Origin: Aliterella atlantica CENA595
GTDB lineage: Bacteria; Cyanobacteriota; Cyanobacteriia; Cyanobacteriales; Chroococcidiopsidaceae
Direction of reading: 5' to 3'
Length of the DNA stretch: 64,000 bases
NCBI RefSeq assembly: GCF_000952155.1
Contig: NZ_JYON01000008.1
Coordinates: forward strand, 1-64,000
A model generated the notes under the pieces. It made no database searches. It was not told the DNA's origin and saw only the letters and a program-made list of their open reading frames with translations. This document shows, piece after piece, positions 6,304 through 13,501 of this stretch. Numbering within the stretch: position 1 is the first letter of the stretch; the number at the start of each line of letters is the position of its first letter. The translations under genes were made by a program, and so were the position numbers.

Positions 6304-6984
6304 TTAATCGTCCGCAATCGGATTTGGCGCTAACAAATGACTAAAAGTATTAGCAACAATCGCCGCCTGAGTGCGATCGCGTAAATTCAACCGAGTCAGA
6401 ATATGCGAAATATGATTTCTGATCGTCCCTTCAGAAAGAAAAAGCGCAGCCGCAATTTCTTTATTACTTGCACCATCTGCAATCAAAAGCAAAACTTCTC
6501 TTTCCCTAGCCGTGAGTTCCTTAAGTCCTGGTGGTGGCTGTGTTTCTGGCGGGGATGTCTGCAAAGCGATCGCCTTTTCTACAATTCCTGGTCCAAACTG
6601 AGTGTAGCCTTGATGAATTGAGCGAATTGCCTTTGCTAGTTCCTCAACAGGCGTATCTTTTAGCAGGTATCCTTTTGCCCCAAACCTTAGAGCTTCGGCA
6701 ACGTAGTGAGAATCATCAAAAGTAGTCAAGACTAATATTTTCGGATTGGGAAACTGCTGGCAGATTATTTGAGTCGCTTGTACTCCGTCCATCACAGGCA
6801 TCCGAATGTCCATAACAATTACATCTGGCGCAAGAGATTTGGCGTGTAAAGCGGATAACTGGGCGATCGCCTTTTGTCCGTTATCCGCTTCGCCGACTAC
6901 CTTTAAATCGGGTTTTGTCTCCAACAATGTTTTCAATCCTCGCCGGACGATCTCTTGGTCTTCTACCAGCAACACTCGGATCAT
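6304..6984 (-). CDS. NarL/FixJ-type response regulator
   Basis: This 226-residue two-component transcription regulator has a receiver domain at residues 1-120 with an acidic pocket (VEDQ, about 8-9) and the phosphoacceptor Asp59 in DVIVMDIRMP. The conserved Lys lies in LLKDTP. A LuxR-type helix-turn-helix spans about residues 155-220 (LTAREREVLLLIADGASNKE, then LFLSEGTIRNHISHIL). It follows the kinase gene after only 7 bases, so the two are almost certainly one operon and a cognate pair. Targets are unknown; the divergent peroxidase/kinase genes are an obvious candidate. Confidence 0.92.
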   Translation of the reverse strand: MIRVLLVEDQEIVRRGLKTLLETKPDLKVVGEADNGQKAIAQLSALHAKSLAPDVIVMDIRMPVMDGVQATQIICQQFPNPKILVLTTFDDSHYVAEALRFGAKGYLLKDTPVEELAKAIRSIHQGYTQFGPGIVEKAIALQTSPPETQPPPGLKELTAREREVLLLIADGASNKEIAAALFLSEGTIRNHISHILTRLNLRDRTQAAIVANTFSHLLAPNPIADD

Positions 6985-6991
6985 GATGATT

Positions 6992-8113
6992 TTAACTGTT
7001 GGAGTTTAAATTTTGTAGTTGAGGGAAAGCAGCGACAATTCGGCAACCAGCACCAGGTGCGCTGCTCATTTCCAGCTTACCTCCTAAAGCCGCAGTGCGC
7101 TCTTGCATTCCTTGCAATCCATAGCCAATTCTGCTTTCATCTACGCGAAAACCCTTGCCATTATCTTCAAGTACAAGTGATAGCTCAGATTGGGTCGACT
7201 GGATGGAAATTTTTACTGCTGTTGCTTCTGCATACTTGCAGATATTAGTTAGCCCTTCTTGGACAATTCGATACAATGCTGTATTCATTACATGACATAA
7301 TGGCTGGTATAAATTAATACAAAGCTCTGGTAAAATTCCCGTAGTGTGGTGAAATTTTTGACTAAGAGAGGCGATCGCTTTTTCTAACGTTTGACCTTGC
7401 AGAGGGTCGAATCTCATTTGGGCGACAGACTGACGTACTGCTTGCAGGGCATTAGTTCCGAGTTGTTTTGCTTCTAGGAGAATTGTATAAGCTTGGCTTG
7501 GGTCTTGCTGCCATAAGGTAATGGCAGTTTCCATTTGAATATTCAGCGCTACCAGTGAATGCCCCAATGAGTCGTGAATATCGCGGGCAATACGATTGCG
7601 TTCTTCTATAGTCGCCATTTCCTCTATGCGCTGGTTGAGAATTTGCTCTTGGTTTAGTGCTTGGCGCAATTCTGCTTCTGCCTGTTGCAAACGGCTATTT
7701 TGCGCTTGCAGTTGCGCTTGCAACCTTGTAAGTTTGAGATGATTTTCAACTCTAACTAAAACTTCCTCGACTTGAAACGGCTTGGTAATATAGTCAACTC
7801 CTCCAACTGCGAAGGCTTTGACTTTATCGAATACCTCATTGAGGGCGCTGATAAAAATTACCGGAATCTCGCAGGTTTGAGGATTAGCTTTTAAGCGCTG
7901 GCAAACTTCATAGCCGTTCATAACTGGCATAGTGATATCTAGCAAAATTAGATCGGGGGGTTGCGCCTGCACGCCCATCAATGCCGTAGAACCATTTGGC
8001 ACGCTTCTAACTTCATATCCGCGATCGCTCAACATTGCCGATAAAAGGCGTAGGTTGTCCAGTGTATCGTCAACGATCAGGATGTCTCCTTTGAGGGACT
8101 GATTGTTATTCAT
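6992..8113 (-). CDS. Receiver-linked NarL-type sensor histidine kinase
   Basis: From the ATG at 8113 this is 373 residues; an upstream in-frame start at 8179 is possible but adds an unlike-family extension. Domains in order: a receiver (about 10-125, Asp59 in LILLDITMP, Lys in ITKPF), a coiled coil rich in Gln/Leu (about 128-165), HisKA_3 dimerisation with phosphoacceptor His180 in RIARDIHDSLGHS, and HATPase (NICKYAEA N-box, DNGKGF, GYGLQGMQERTAALGG). There are no membrane segments or PAS/GAF domain, so it is a soluble kinase. Its input may be phosphorylation of its own receiver, perhaps by the hybrid kinase encoded divergently (inference). Confidence 0.9.
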   Translation of the reverse strand: MNNNQSLKGDILIVDDTLDNLRLLSAMLSDRGYEVRSVPNGSTALMGVQAQPPDLILLDITMPVMNGYEVCQRLKANPQTCEIPVIFISALNEVFDKVKAFAVGGVDYITKPFQVEEVLVRVENHLKLTRLQAQLQAQNSRLQQAEAELRQALNQEQILNQRIEEMATIEERNRIARDIHDSLGHSLVALNIQMETAITLWQQDPSQAYTILLEAKQLGTNALQAVRQSVAQMRFDPLQGQTLEKAIASLSQKFHHTTGILPELCINLYQPLCHVMNTALYRIVQEGLTNICKYAEATAVKISIQSTQSELSLVLEDNGKGFRVDESRIGYGLQGMQERTAALGGKLEMSSAPGAGCRIVAAFPQLQNLNSNS

Positions 8114-8299
8114 GCCGTAAGTAAGTAGGAAGTAACAGCAATTAGAATCTAAGTTAAATATTTTCTGGGTTGATTGCAACTTTGACCAATTTGTATATAT
8201 TTATAAAAAATTCTGTTGATAGCGAACTGAAAAAATTTTCTATTTTAAAGTGATAGTGTTCAAACTTCGCTGCTTTCCACACTCCTTGATGGCGATCGC
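8114..8299. promoter_or_regulatory. Shared divergent promoter region
   Basis: About 186 bases separate the start of the REC-kinase (minus) from the cytochrome c peroxidase (plus). The middle is AT-rich (about 8180-8260), as expected for back-to-back promoters, with one HIP1 site just before the peroxidase ATG. I did not find an unambiguous operator. The arrangement suggests that both operons could be controlled from this gap, perhaps by the NarL regulator. Confidence 0.4.
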
Positions 8300-9337
8300 A
8301 TGGATTTATTTTCTCCATCTTTGCACGTTAAACGTCGAATCTACCTGATTGTTTTAGTTGTTCTAGCTTGTTTGGTAGCGCTGGTTTGGCAGCAGTTCCA
8401 GACCTCCCAGCCGTTAACAAGACCAAAGGTAGAGCAAGTAGAGGTGAAATGGGCGAACGAACCAATTCAACCAATTCCCCTAACAATTGATTTGGATCGA
8501 GATCAGGTTGCTTTGGGCAAGCAACTATTTGAGGATGTTCGCCTTTCTAAAAATAATCAAATTTCCTGCCTTAGTTGCCACAGCTATAGCACAGGAGGTA
8601 CAGATCGCGCCATGCATGAGACTGGGGGCGAAAAATTTGGCGCTATAAATACTCTCAGCGTATTTAATTCAAGCTTCAATTTCCGGTTGAATTGGAGCGG
8701 TAAGTTTGAGCAGTTAGCCCAGCAGATTGATAGCTTGTTACAAAACCCTAAAGTGATGGGAAGTAATTGGCAAGATATCATCGTCAAACTGCGCTCCTCT
8801 AGTCAGTACAGGCAGGCTTTTGCTCGGATTTACCCAGACGGTTTAACTCCCTTTAACGTCAAGGATGCGATCGCTACTTTTGAGCAATCCCTTTACACGC
8901 CCAACTCTCGGTTCGACCAATTTTTACGAGGTAATGCCCAAGCACTGACAGCAGCAGAAAAAGAGGGCTACCGAATTTTCAAAGACTACGGGTGTGTTAG
9001 TTGTCACCAGGGGATCAATGTAGGTGGCAATATGTTTCAACGCTTTGGCGTAATGGGAGACTATTTGGCGAATCGAGGTCATGTTACCAAAGCTGACTTA
9101 GGACGCTTCAACGTCACCCACAACCCAGCAGATCGCTACGTATTTAGAGTTCCCAGCTTACGCAATGTTGCTTTGACTCCGCCTTACTTCCATGATGGCT
9201 CTGCTCAAAATTTAGAGCAGGCGATCGCTGTCATGGCAAAATATCAGCTTGGTCGCCCCCTGTCAAAGCAGCAAACTGACTTAATTACTCAATTTTTAGG
9301 CACTCTGACGGGAGAATATCAAGGAAAACCACTATGA
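8300..9337 (+). CDS. Di-heme cytochrome c peroxidase (CcpA/MauG family)
   Basis: This 345-residue protein has an uncleaved N-terminal membrane anchor (about residues 12-31, RRIYLIVLVVLACLVALVWQ), so the catalytic part faces the periplasm or lumen. Two c-type haem sites are present, CLSCH at 90-94 and CVSCH at 232-236, the spacing of bacterial di-haem peroxidases. The C-terminal RVPSLRNVALTPPYFHDGSA is the family signature near the haem and calcium site. The enzyme would reduce H2O2 with electrons from a small redox carrier, or in MauG-like members oxidise a protein. The stop overlaps the start of the next gene (ATGA), so the two are translationally coupled. Confidence 0.93.
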   Translation: MDLFSPSLHVKRRIYLIVLVVLACLVALVWQQFQTSQPLTRPKVEQVEVKWANEPIQPIPLTIDLDRDQVALGKQLFEDVRLSKNNQISCLSCHSYSTGGTDRAMHETGGEKFGAINTLSVFNSSFNFRLNWSGKFEQLAQQIDSLLQNPKVMGSNWQDIIVKLRSSSQYRQAFARIYPDGLTPFNVKDAIATFEQSLYTPNSRFDQFLRGNAQALTAAEKEGYRIFKDYGCVSCHQGINVGGNMFQRFGVMGDYLANRGHVTKADLGRFNVTHNPADRYVFRVPSLRNVALTPPYFHDGSAQNLEQAIAVMAKYQLGRPLSKQQTDLITQFLGTLTGEYQGKPL

Positions 9338-12066
9338 AATTCTCTAACCTTAGCAAGATTCTCTCTATTCGCCGACATCATGAGACGAAAACAGTTAACA
9401 CCAACTTATCTCATCTACGCGGCTACTTGATTCTGCCAGGGTTAGTGCTGCTATTTGTCTTTCTGTGGCTCAAATCTCAAACAATCGACCTCAATCAACA
9501 TAATTATTACATCATCAACCTCCGACAAACTCAAGAATTGGATGCTCGGATTAATCAAAATGTTTTGCAGGCAAGGTATGGTCTGCTGTCACACTACGAT
9601 CCAATTGTCAATGACATAAAAAAATTAAAAAATATCCAAACGGAACTTCAGCAGGCTCCTAGCTTTATCGATCGCACGAGGCGCGAACAGTTAGATCGGT
9701 TGCTACAGGCAAATATCAAAGTCTGGCAAGAAAAAGAACAATACATTCAGAAATTTCAGTCAGAAAATGCTATTTTACGTAACTCCTTAAGCTATTTTCC
9801 GATCGCCATCAAAGAGCTAGTCGAACAAGATACAACTCCCCCAGCCTTAGCAAACCGCTTGAATACACTGCTGCGCGATCTGCTGCTATTTAACCTCTCA
9901 ACAGACGAAGAGTTAGTTGTACAGATCGACCGTGAAATCGAGCAAATTTTGGCATCCAGCACGCTTGCCAACAACGCCAACTTAAAGTTAGCGATCGCCC
10001 ATGCTCAAATCATCCTCAACAGGCGCTCTCAGGTAGATCGATTAATCCAAAGCGCGATCGCACTACCTACTAGCACAAGTGGAGAAAACCTGACTCAGAC
10101 TTATGATGGTTTCTACCAGCAAGCGCTCGACTCTACCAGTACCTATCGACTCTGGCTGTATCTGCTGTCTTTTGTTTTGCTTGTTAGCGTTGCTACTTGG
10201 ATAATTCTCCGGCTCAAGACTTATGCGATCGCCACAGAGCAAGCGGAGGAAAAATATCGAAGTATTTTTGAGAACTCTGTAGCGGGAATTTTCCAGACAA
10301 CTCCTGATGGACGCTATCTCAGCGCCAATCCTAAACTAGCAGCCATGTATGGCTACGATTCTAGCGAACAGCTAATCCAAAATTTGACAGATATCAATCG
10401 TCAGCTATACGTTTTGCCAGAGCAAAGGCTAGATTTTATCCATCTGCTGATGGCAAATGGTTCGGTGGCGGATTTTGAGTTTGAGGTTTACCGCCGAGAT
10501 GGCACAAAGATTTGGATTTCCCAGAATGCTCGGTTAGTGCGCGATCGCGATCGCAAGTTGCTTTATTACGAAGGTACTGCTACGGACATTACAGTTCGTA
10601 AACTTGCCGAGGCAGCTTTGCAACAAGCAATGGTAGCAGCAGAAGTTGCCAACCGCGCCAAAAGTCAGTTTCTCTCTAATATGAGTCATGAAGTACGTAC
10701 TCCTCTCAATGTGATTTTGGGCTTTACTCAGTTAATGACTCTGGGCGGTTCGCTTACCACACAGCAGCAGGAATATTTAGATACGATTAGTCGCAGTGGC
10801 GAACATCTCCTAGCATTAATCAACGATGTGTTAGAAATGTCCAAGATTGAGGCGGGGAGAACGACGCTAAATGAAAATAGCTTCGATGTTTACAATCTGC
10901 TCGATTCTTTGCAGACAATGTTACAGCTTAAAGCTGAGAGTAAAGGATTAGAGTTAATTTTCGAGCGAGCAAGCGACGTGCCTCAATACATTCGCACTGA
11001 TGAAAGCAAGCTGCGCCAAGTTTTAGTGAATCTGTTAGGTAATGCAATTAAGTTTACACAAGTTGGCAGCGTCACACTGCACGTAAAAGTAGAAAGTTCG
11101 ATCTCACCTCCTCGCCTGCTGTTTGCAGTTAAAGACACAGGGCTGGGTATTGCTATTACAGAACTAAAAAGCCTATTCGATCCTTTTATCCAAACAGAGA
11201 CAGGGCGCAACTCTCAAGAAGGGACGGGACTTGGTTTGCCTATTAGTCAGAAATTTGTTGACTTAATGGGCGGAGAGATTACTGTTGCAAGTCAACTTGG
11301 GTTGGGATCGGTGTTTGAGTTTGAGATTCAAACTAGCACAGTAGTTGCTGATGAAGTCCAAACTACCGTCGAACCATTACAGCAAGTAGTCGGTTTGGAG
11401 GCTGGACAACCTAATTACCGCATTCTCATCGTAGAAGACAAGTTGGAAAATCGGCGGTTGATGGTTGAGCTACTAAGACCAGTTGGTTTTGACGTGCGAG
11501 AGGCAGTAAATGGGCAAGAAGCGATCGCCCTGTGGCAAAGCTGGTCGCCTCAGCTAATTTGGATGGATATGCGGATGCCAGTTATGGACGGTTTTGAGGC
11601 AACCAAACGCATTAAATCTGCTGGCAAGATTGCTCCTGTGGTGATTGCTTTAACTGGAAGCGCCTTTGAAGAAGAGCGCACAGTTGTATTGTCCCAGGGG
11701 TGTGACGACTACGTACGCAAGCCATTTCGAGCTAATGTCATATTTGAGAAAATGGCGGAACATTTGGGAGTCCGCTACCTGTACGATGCAAAACAATTGT
11801 GTAGCGTAGATGAAGACTCGCTGCATCAGCCTACCCTCAGAGGGGAAGAAGTGAAACAGGCATTAGCCCAGATGCCTATCGATTGGCTAGAACACTTGCA
11901 TCAAGCAGCAATAAAGGTAAATGCAAAGCAGGTGCATCACTGGCTCGAGCAAATGCCAATCGCCAACGCTCCTTTAGCTAATGCCTTAACCGAATTAGTT
12001 GGTAACTTTTGTTTTGAGGAGATTGTTACCCTCACTCAGGCAGCATCACGTCAGCATTCTAACTAA
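9334..12066 (+). CDS. Membrane-bound hybrid histidine kinase coupled to the peroxidase
   Basis: The protein has 910 residues. A membrane helix (about 29-48), a helical extracytoplasmic domain (about 50-265, similar in style to DAHL double-helical ligand domains) and a second helix (about 268-292) form the sensor. The cytoplasmic part is PAS (about 300-425, NSVAGIFQTTPDGRYLSANP), HisKA with His452 in SNMSHEVRTPLN, HATPase (LVNLLGNAIKF; DTGLGI; GTGLGLPIS) and a receiver with Asp745 in WMDMRMP. A 100-residue tail has no Hpt histidine motif that I can see. ATGA overlap with the peroxidase suggests that it senses a peroxidase-related redox state (inference). Confidence 0.9.
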   Translation: MKFSNLSKILSIRRHHETKTVNTNLSHLRGYLILPGLVLLFVFLWLKSQTIDLNQHNYYIINLRQTQELDARINQNVLQARYGLLSHYDPIVNDIKKLKNIQTELQQAPSFIDRTRREQLDRLLQANIKVWQEKEQYIQKFQSENAILRNSLSYFPIAIKELVEQDTTPPALANRLNTLLRDLLLFNLSTDEELVVQIDREIEQILASSTLANNANLKLAIAHAQIILNRRSQVDRLIQSAIALPTSTSGENLTQTYDGFYQQALDSTSTYRLWLYLLSFVLLVSVATWIILRLKTYAIATEQAEEKYRSIFENSVAGIFQTTPDGRYLSANPKLAAMYGYDSSEQLIQNLTDINRQLYVLPEQRLDFIHLLMANGSVADFEFEVYRRDGTKIWISQNARLVRDRDRKLLYYEGTATDITVRKLAEAALQQAMVAAEVANRAKSQFLSNMSHEVRTPLNVILGFTQLMTLGGSLTTQQQEYLDTISRSGEHLLALINDVLEMSKIEAGRTTLNENSFDVYNLLDSLQTMLQLKAESKGLELIFERASDVPQYIRTDESKLRQVLVNLLGNAIKFTQVGSVTLHVKVESSISPPRLLFAVKDTGLGIAITELKSLFDPFIQTETGRNSQEGTGLGLPISQKFVDLMGGEITVASQLGLGSVFEFEIQTSTVVADEVQTTVEPLQQVVGLEAGQPNYRILIVEDKLENRRLMVELLRPVGFDVREAVNGQEAIALWQSWSPQLIWMDMRMPVMDGFEATKRIKSAGKIAPVVIALTGSAFEEERTVVLSQGCDDYVRKPFRANVIFEKMAEHLGVRYLYDAKQLCSVDEDSLHQPTLRGEEVKQALAQMPIDWLEHLHQAAIKVNAKQVHHWLEQMPIANAPLANALTELVGNFCFEEIVTLTQAASRQHSN

Positions 12067-12310: not shown

Positions 12311-13501
12311 CTATGGACTATTGGGAATCAGCCTGCCGCAAGGATAAGTAGCTGTTTGCTCGGAGGCATTTTCAGCTACCGCTGCAGGGATTTCTTCTAC
12401 GGGGCGATTTTTGGCGGCGAGATAGTCTGCTTGCAATTTTGCTAGCATATCCTCCCGCTTGTCGTACAAACGCTTCAATGGGCGCGGCTGACATTGTTGC
12501 ATGACATAAGCAGTTAGTAGCGGTAGGGCGATCGTGCTATCTGTATAACAAACAATTGTACTGGGCAACTCTTCGGGGTCGATTTTGCCCCAACTTACAG
12601 CCTCCGATGGCGTTGCGCCAGAAAGTCCGCCAGTATCGGGACGCGCATCGGTAAATTGAATAAAGTAGTCGTGTCCTCTTTCTTCTAACCCCAACACTTC
12701 GTGCAACTGGGGCTGAGTTTGCAAAAGGAAGTTTTTTGGACTACCGCCGCCGATAATTACCGCCGCACTTTTGCCTTCTATATCAGCTATACCAGAATTT
12801 CGGGCGCTATAGGCGATCGCTGCTGTTTCATTTACATCTATTGAAGGATCGATAATCAATTTCGATCCCTCCAATGCCAAAGCCGCAACGTTCATCCCAA
12901 TCGAGCTATCCCCAGGCGATGAAGTATAAATTGGCACTCCACACTCATAAGCTGTAGCTAATAAACAAGAATGCTTGACTCCAATTTGCTTTTCTACTTC
13001 CCTAACATACTTACCTAGCAAATGGTGAAATTCTGCCGTACCCATCCGCTTTTGAAACGGTTCTGCTTGTAAAATCTTGCGGATAAAAGCATCAGTTTCT
13101 AGCAACACATCGTAGCCAAACATAATGTCATAGATGCGGATTGTCCCTTCTTGGCGCAACTTGACATCATCAACAAAAGGATGCCCAGAATAAAGTTCAA
13201 ACCCCAATCCATAATGCAAATCGTGATAGAGATTTGCGCCCGTACTAATCGCCCAATCAATAAAACCATTGCGGATTAGCGGTGCAAGTACGGAAACGCC
13301 AAAGCCAGCAGGTGTCATTGCACCAGACAAGCTAACGCCGACAGTAACGCCTGCTTGTAGTACATCCTTACTTAACAACTGGCAGATTTCCCGCAGCCGC
13401 GCTGAATTATATGCCGTAAAATAATTATCAATCAAATCCACCACGCTAATTTGTGCCTGCATGGGCGTGGGAGAGATTTTGTTGCTAGGCAATTTTGACA
13501 T
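12311..13501 (-). CDS. Deoxyhypusine synthase-like protein
   Basis: This 396-residue NAD-dependent enzyme belongs to the deoxyhypusine synthase fold. Recognisable parts are [35 protein letters not shown], the NAD-site segment [36 protein letters not shown] and the active-site EAVSWGKI, whose Lys306 matches the lysine that forms the enamine/imine in deoxyhypusine synthase. Bacteria lack eIF5A, and characterised bacterial relatives make homospermidine or act in other polyamine chemistry, so polyamine aminobutyl transfer is the likely role (inference). The C-terminal 50 residues are low-complexity Ala/Glu. It lies 31 bases after the macrodomain gene, probably in one operon. Confidence 0.85.

Follow-up and report, generated by a model that had tools for sequence, protein, structure and literature searches.

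The window analysed here comprises 64,000 nucleotides of Aliterella atlantica CENA595 (contig NZ_JYON01000008.1, positions 1 to 64,000). The locus under study consists of two divergent units, one coding for a soluble kinase and a response regulator, the other for a di-haem peroxidase-like protein (CCP) and a membrane hybrid kinase (Table 1). Open frames and Pfam matches bore out the four genes, the ATGA coupling and the 186-base divergent gap of the original prediction, each at its predicted position. The frame of the soluble kinase reaches 8179 if a TTG start is taken instead of the ATG. Past the receiver of the hybrid kinase, about 100 helical-looking residues (window 11755-12066) had no match to Pfam or Hpt. 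Convergent with the hybrid kinase gene lies a gene for a deoxyhypusine-synthase-like homospermidine biosynthesis protein (NF001980; window 12311-13501).

Table 1. Features of the locus, in window positions.
Feature	Positions	Strand	Basis
NarL/FixJ-type response regulator, receiver (Response_reg) + GerE/LuxR HTH, 226 aa	6304-6984	-	open frame + Pfam
Soluble kinase, Response_reg + HisKA_3 + HATPase_c, 373 aa from ATG	6992-8113	-	open frame + Pfam
Divergent intergenic region, 186 bases, putative promoters for both units	8114-8299		sequence
Di-haem peroxidase-like protein (CCP; CCP_MauG family), 345 aa, N-terminal membrane anchor	8300-9337	+	open frame + Pfam
ATGA, CCP stop overlapping hybrid kinase start	9334-9337	+	sequence
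Membrane hybrid histidine kinase, 910 aa, TM-DAHL-TM-PAS-HisKA-HATPase_c-receiver-C-terminal tail of ~100 aa	9334-12066	+	open frame + Pfam
DAHL domain (PF19443), predicted periplasmic all-helical input domain	9484-10149	+	Pfam + AlphaFold

The window CCP matched Pfam CCP_MauG (PF03150) with 164 bits (cut-off 25.6, E 3.8e-48) and contained both CxxCH motifs. Its N-terminus bore one strong hydrophobic helix at about residues 14-30, with a mean hydropathy of 3.1. It was the sole close full-length CCP of its own genome, where the remaining CCP_MauG matches sat in longer frames, of some 690-790 aa.

The "large helical external domain" first noticed in the kinase turned out to be a DAHL domain (PF19443). 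It scored 196 bits against a cut-off of 38 (E 7.1e-58), covered positions 1-221 of the 221-position profile and was the one DAHL in its genome. The AlphaFold model was all-helical, with a pLDDT of 96 and a pTM of 0.88. Foldseek searches with this model gave the ligand-binding domain of McpS and TorS as the best solved folds, both weakly (E about 2e-3, TM 0.42-0.53). In the open literature we found neither a description of a ligand for DAHL nor an explanation of what its name means.

Conservation of the gene neighbourhood

We searched 391 genomes of the window's order for close relatives of the CCP and for strong DAHL matches. Close CCP relatives occurred in 45 of them, 44 of which also had a DAHL; in the window's genus, two of the six sampled genomes had the CCP. 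In the neighbourhoods fetched from this order, nearly every full-length CCP relative of at least about 48% identity directly adjoined a DAHL gene, and four remoter ones (37-43% identity) did not. A DAHL gene directly adjoined the CCP in 78 of the 80 top-ranked relatives in named genomes, loci which were chosen by their similarity to CCPs already known to be paired. They came from Cyanobacteriota, Pseudomonadota (Gamma-, Beta- and Alphaproteobacteria, Magnetococcia), Thermodesulfobacteriota, Acidobacteriota, Opitutia and candidate phyla, a breadth that rests chiefly on cyanobacteria and proteobacteria since several of these taxon labels belong to metagenome bins.

Because of the way these loci were picked, a reverse test started from DAHL, using nothing but its Pfam model. 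Across 321 Gammaproteobacteria, a CCP was immediately adjacent to 49 of 54 DAHL genes, the exceptions being L211, L240 (at a contig start), L250, L260 and L261. The phylum that includes the Desulfuromonadales locus yielded two DAHLs, both paired, one of them at the locus first found via its CCP. In the window's order (391 genomes), some 49 strong DAHLs could be tested, and about 41 of these had a CCP partner. The unpaired ones were six members of one family (f15), one kinase (G024) and G324, in which CCP and DAHL were both present on separate contigs. The original prediction hung on homologues of peroxidase and kinase being usual neighbours, and in both directions of the search they were. By an informal estimate, chance adjacency would be well below 1% per gene, CCP-type genes numbering a handful per genome (about four in the window's own). 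The gene order of the window is far above chance, and its CCP-DAHL part recurs across several phyla.

Some DAHL proteins without an adjacent CCP deserve mention in their own right. In the cyanobacterial f15 family (L097, L099-L102, L104), the two proteins scanned, L097 and L101, read DAHL-PAS-class III cyclase; these DAHLs are candidates for another or a distant partner. Divergent DAHL hybrid kinases at L105-L111, with no CCP nearby, had an overlapping or abutting neighbour gene, which coded for REC-PAS-GGDEF-EAL where scanned (L106). Since f15, G024 and this divergent clade have no adjacent CCP, DAHL can work without a linked one.

The divergent kinase and regulator behaved differently from the CCP-DAHL pair. 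On the CCP tree the window protein fell within a supported clade of 14 (SH-aLRT 98), and a REC-HisKA_3 kinase, mostly with a NarL regulator and in varying orientation, lay beside 12 of these CCPs. Kinase and NarL were both present at the window, L038, L039, L040, L042, L047, L059, L060, L112, L121 and L130; G355 (via L078/L098) had the kinase with no NarL, and L041 and L044 had neither. In the neighbourhoods surveyed outside this clade, the pair was not clearly seen beside CCPs, which makes it a lineage-specific output branch and not part of the core module. The four genes thus did not hold up as a general unit. Between the window and its nearest relative, L038, the 186-base gap was alike in little except a short AT-rich stretch, and no conserved regulator site was found in it. 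A phosphorelay between the two receivers, as had been proposed, is speculation; none of the four proteins had a Pfam match to an Hpt domain.

Architecture and co-divergence of the pair

In all, 162 unique CCP-DAHL pairs were compared. The CCP preceded the DAHL gene in 159 of them, and 101 shared the exact 4-base ATGA overlap. No natural fusion of the two was found among 213 CCP and 223 DAHL frames. A joint AlphaFold model of the L042 CCP and DAHL, read through the TAA between the two in-frame genes, reached a pLDDT of 74 and a pTM of 0.50 with the CCP half mostly unfolded; with four aligned CCP rows it was uninformative.

The constant membrane input was joined to many outputs. Behind DAHL we found a histidine kinase with or without a receiver in 81 pairs, GGDEF or GGDEF plus EAL in 43, a class III cyclase in 12, a Y1-transposase-like domain in six, an MCP in four and SpoIIE in two, the other 14 having no assigned class, mostly because they were cut by the ends of loci or contigs. 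On the CCP tree the output switched class 17 times or more (50-59 times with shuffled labels). As the output behind DAHL is often no kinase, the constant unit is CCP plus DAHL rather than CCP plus kinase.

The Y1-type DAHLs are cyanobacterial membrane proteins (L068:6468-7964, L069:9256-10866, L074:6568-8076, L075:4349-5980, L079:1340-2851) whose C-terminal domain matches Y1_Tnp, an IS200-like transposase, apparently without the HUH motif. It appears to be a domesticated, catalytically degenerate transposase domain serving as a sensor output. At two loci the CCP was followed by a short DAHL protein with no recognised output domain (L246:3004-3963 and L257:2880-3659), possibly a stand-alone DAHL subunit. 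The C-terminus of one DAHL hybrid kinase (L072:8174-10987) gave a marginal Pfam Rieske match, likely by chance.

For 80 kinase pairs we compared evolutionary distances. Those of CCP and DAHL correlated with r = 0.895 and those of DAHL and the ATPase domain of its own chain with r = 0.618, a contrast that rests partly on close relatives, since distant pairs gave 0.38 and 0.40, respectively (CCP-ATPase, -0.09). Shuffling the pairing lowered the CCP-DAHL correlation to at most 0.18. The partial correlation of CCP and DAHL given the ATPase domain was 0.86, that of CCP and ATPase given DAHL -0.17. What is inherited together is best taken to be CCP plus DAHL and not CCP plus kinase. The core of the original prediction, a sensing pair of peroxidase and kinase, was strongly supported, and more widely than proposed, adjacency having been found in both directions; the constant partner is DAHL and not the kinase.

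Adjacency might also be a relic of one horizontally spread operon whose genes travel together without interacting. The patchy distribution of the CCP, in the order as in the genus, would suit such hitch-hiking. It is nevertheless a very improbable explanation, given that the pair has been kept through all these output changes and a deep divergence, with the same overlap.

Haem ligands and P-haem pocket of the CCP

The active sites of the 162 paired CCPs were scored against the CCP of N. europaea (1iqc). Nearly all of them kept both CxxCH haem motifs, and 161 kept the Trp that lies between the haems. The axial Met of the E haem (Met258 of 1iqc) was kept in the window and in 154 overall, Gln92 in the window and in 145 overall. 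The distal His (His59 of 1iqc) was absent from the window protein as from all 162. The catalytic Glu (Glu102 of 1iqc) was kept in 119, its state changing 11 times on the CCP tree, and was missing from 14 of 14 members of the window's clade. In the window, its position (Glu118 in N. gonorrhoeae) is taken by Val.

In N. gonorrhoeae CCP the P-haem pocket is formed by Phe97, Gln108, Pro112, Glu118 and Met119, and variants of the Glu and the Gln are reported to be inactive (PMC10094543). Compared with this pocket, the window CCP kept Gln and Met and had Asn for Phe (position 81 of 1iqc), Leu for Pro and Val for Glu. With no distal ligand and with the Glu, Phe and Pro of the pocket lost, the window CCP should have an accessible haem that cleaves peroxide poorly, as would suit a detector. 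For the same residues missing, together with the distal His, the label of an enzymatic peroxidase is doubtful for this protein. Most of the paired CCPs, namely the 119 with the Glu, may on the other hand be active enzymes.

The nearest solved relative of the window CCP was PDB entry 9qdt (1.7e-74). This is probably E. coli YhjA, because its haem ligands His 166 and 310, counted on the alignment, match His211 and His355 of YhjA with a constant offset of 45. YhjA shares with the window CCP the membrane anchor and the lack of a distal ligand at the P haem, which in YhjA leaves that haem accessible to H2O2 when oxidised (PMC10301912). It differs by a third haem, 9qdt keeps the catalytic Glu, and YhjA is an H2O2 reductase whose description includes no sensor gene. 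The classical bacterial CCPs (1iqc, 3o5c, 1zzh) share the two haem c motifs, the Met of the E haem, the Trp between the haems and the Gln of the pocket; unlike the window CCP, they retain the distal His as well as the catalytic Glu.

We also considered the chemistry of MauG, by which the CCP would oxidatively modify DAHL and the modification would be the signal. MauG shares the Pfam family of the CCP and appears among the matches. The matches, however, favour peroxidases over MauG, the E haem carries Met in place of the Tyr of MauG and BthA, and the catalytic Glu is missing throughout the window's clade. Such a signal is extremely unlikely, and a MauG-type protein-modifying enzyme was dropped as a candidate for the window protein.

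Discussion

The side-by-side occurrence of CCP and helical DAHL across many bacteria, with the outputs swapped, suggests a haem protein as the periplasmic detector of a sensor. CCP and DAHL probably form a two-protein input module in which the CCP acts as a haem co-receptor that signals to DAHL. On the best reading of our data, the CCP would report peroxide, another ligand or a redox state.

As we picture it, the CCP would be a membrane-tethered di-haem co-receptor, presumably located in the periplasm. Lacking a distal protein ligand, its P haem would leave room for H2O2 or a different small ligand, and its Met-ligated E haem could pass electrons to and from carriers in the periplasm. A change in ligation or redox state would be passed on to the helical DAHL by contact, and DAHL would then shift the transmembrane helices and so switch the output, which in the window would be the PAS-HisKA-REC hybrid kinase. 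The divergent REC-HisKA_3 kinase and the NarL regulator would probably form a downstream or parallel branch of this hybrid kinase.

A variant of the co-receptor reading has the E haem passing the redox state of the periplasmic or lumenal electron-carrier pool to DAHL, the signal then not being peroxide. The conservation of the E-haem CxxCH and Met in nearly all pairs, the almost invariant Trp between the haems and the repeated loss of the catalytic Glu are all consistent with such a relay, which sequence does not separate from a peroxide signal. The P haem that is open everywhere and the frequent retention of Gln92 speak for ligand binding at the P haem, and we regard the relay as possible but somewhat doubtful.

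A more conventional view would take the CCP for an ordinary peroxide-detoxifying enzyme under the control of a DAHL protein that senses its substrate, its product or stress. The catalytic Glu is, after all, kept in most pairs, 9qdt is a real peroxidase without a distal ligand, and translational coupling would suit equal expression of enzyme and regulator. Yet chemoreceptor, cyclase, SpoIIE and GGDEF/EAL outputs do not directly regulate the CCP gene, in the window's clade the genes have stayed adjacent after the catalytic Glu was lost, and DAHL tracks the CCP and not its own kinase. We consider this view unlikely.

The co-receptor reading finds its closest parallel in E. coli TorS, which is controlled by periplasmic TorT and inhibited by the membrane-anchored apo-cytochrome TorC, which binds to its periplasmic part (PMC8534201). 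In that system an all-helical two-bundle periplasmic sensor of a hybrid kinase is under a separate periplasmic protein and a c-type cytochrome. TorS is, by analogy, the best precedent for DAHL as the receiver of a partner protein. It was among the nearest solved folds, weakly, but belongs to a different Pfam family. Unlike TorT and TorC, the partner proposed here is di-haem peroxidase-like and the pair, known here from genomic coupling, is joined to many output classes. Among solved folds, the one nearest to the DAHL model was the helical bimodular ligand-binding domain of McpS (2yfb; E 1.9e-3, TM 0.52). Its structures, however, bind small acids (succinate, malate) directly and with no partner protein, and its sequence identity to DAHL is about 12%.

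We found no description of a pairing of this peroxidase with DAHL or a sensor in the open literature; it may have been noticed before. In a broader form, on which we lean slightly to the positive side, DAHL would be dedicated to reading a di-haem peroxidase-like co-receptor wherever the two co-occur. The pair would then constitute a modular haem-based extracytoplasmic sensor, spread over several phyla and joined to no fewer than six kinds of output, in which a peroxidase was repeatedly turned into a non-catalytic pseudo-enzyme detector.

DAHL fronts many bacterial signalling proteins, among others in Pseudomonas, Comamonas and cyanobacteria. If it reads a di-haem co-receptor, DAHL input becomes directly testable. 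The easily recognised CCP-DAHL gene pair would mark periplasmic peroxide or redox sensing in genomes, and a peroxidase lineage would have turned sensor repeatedly through loss of its catalytic Glu.
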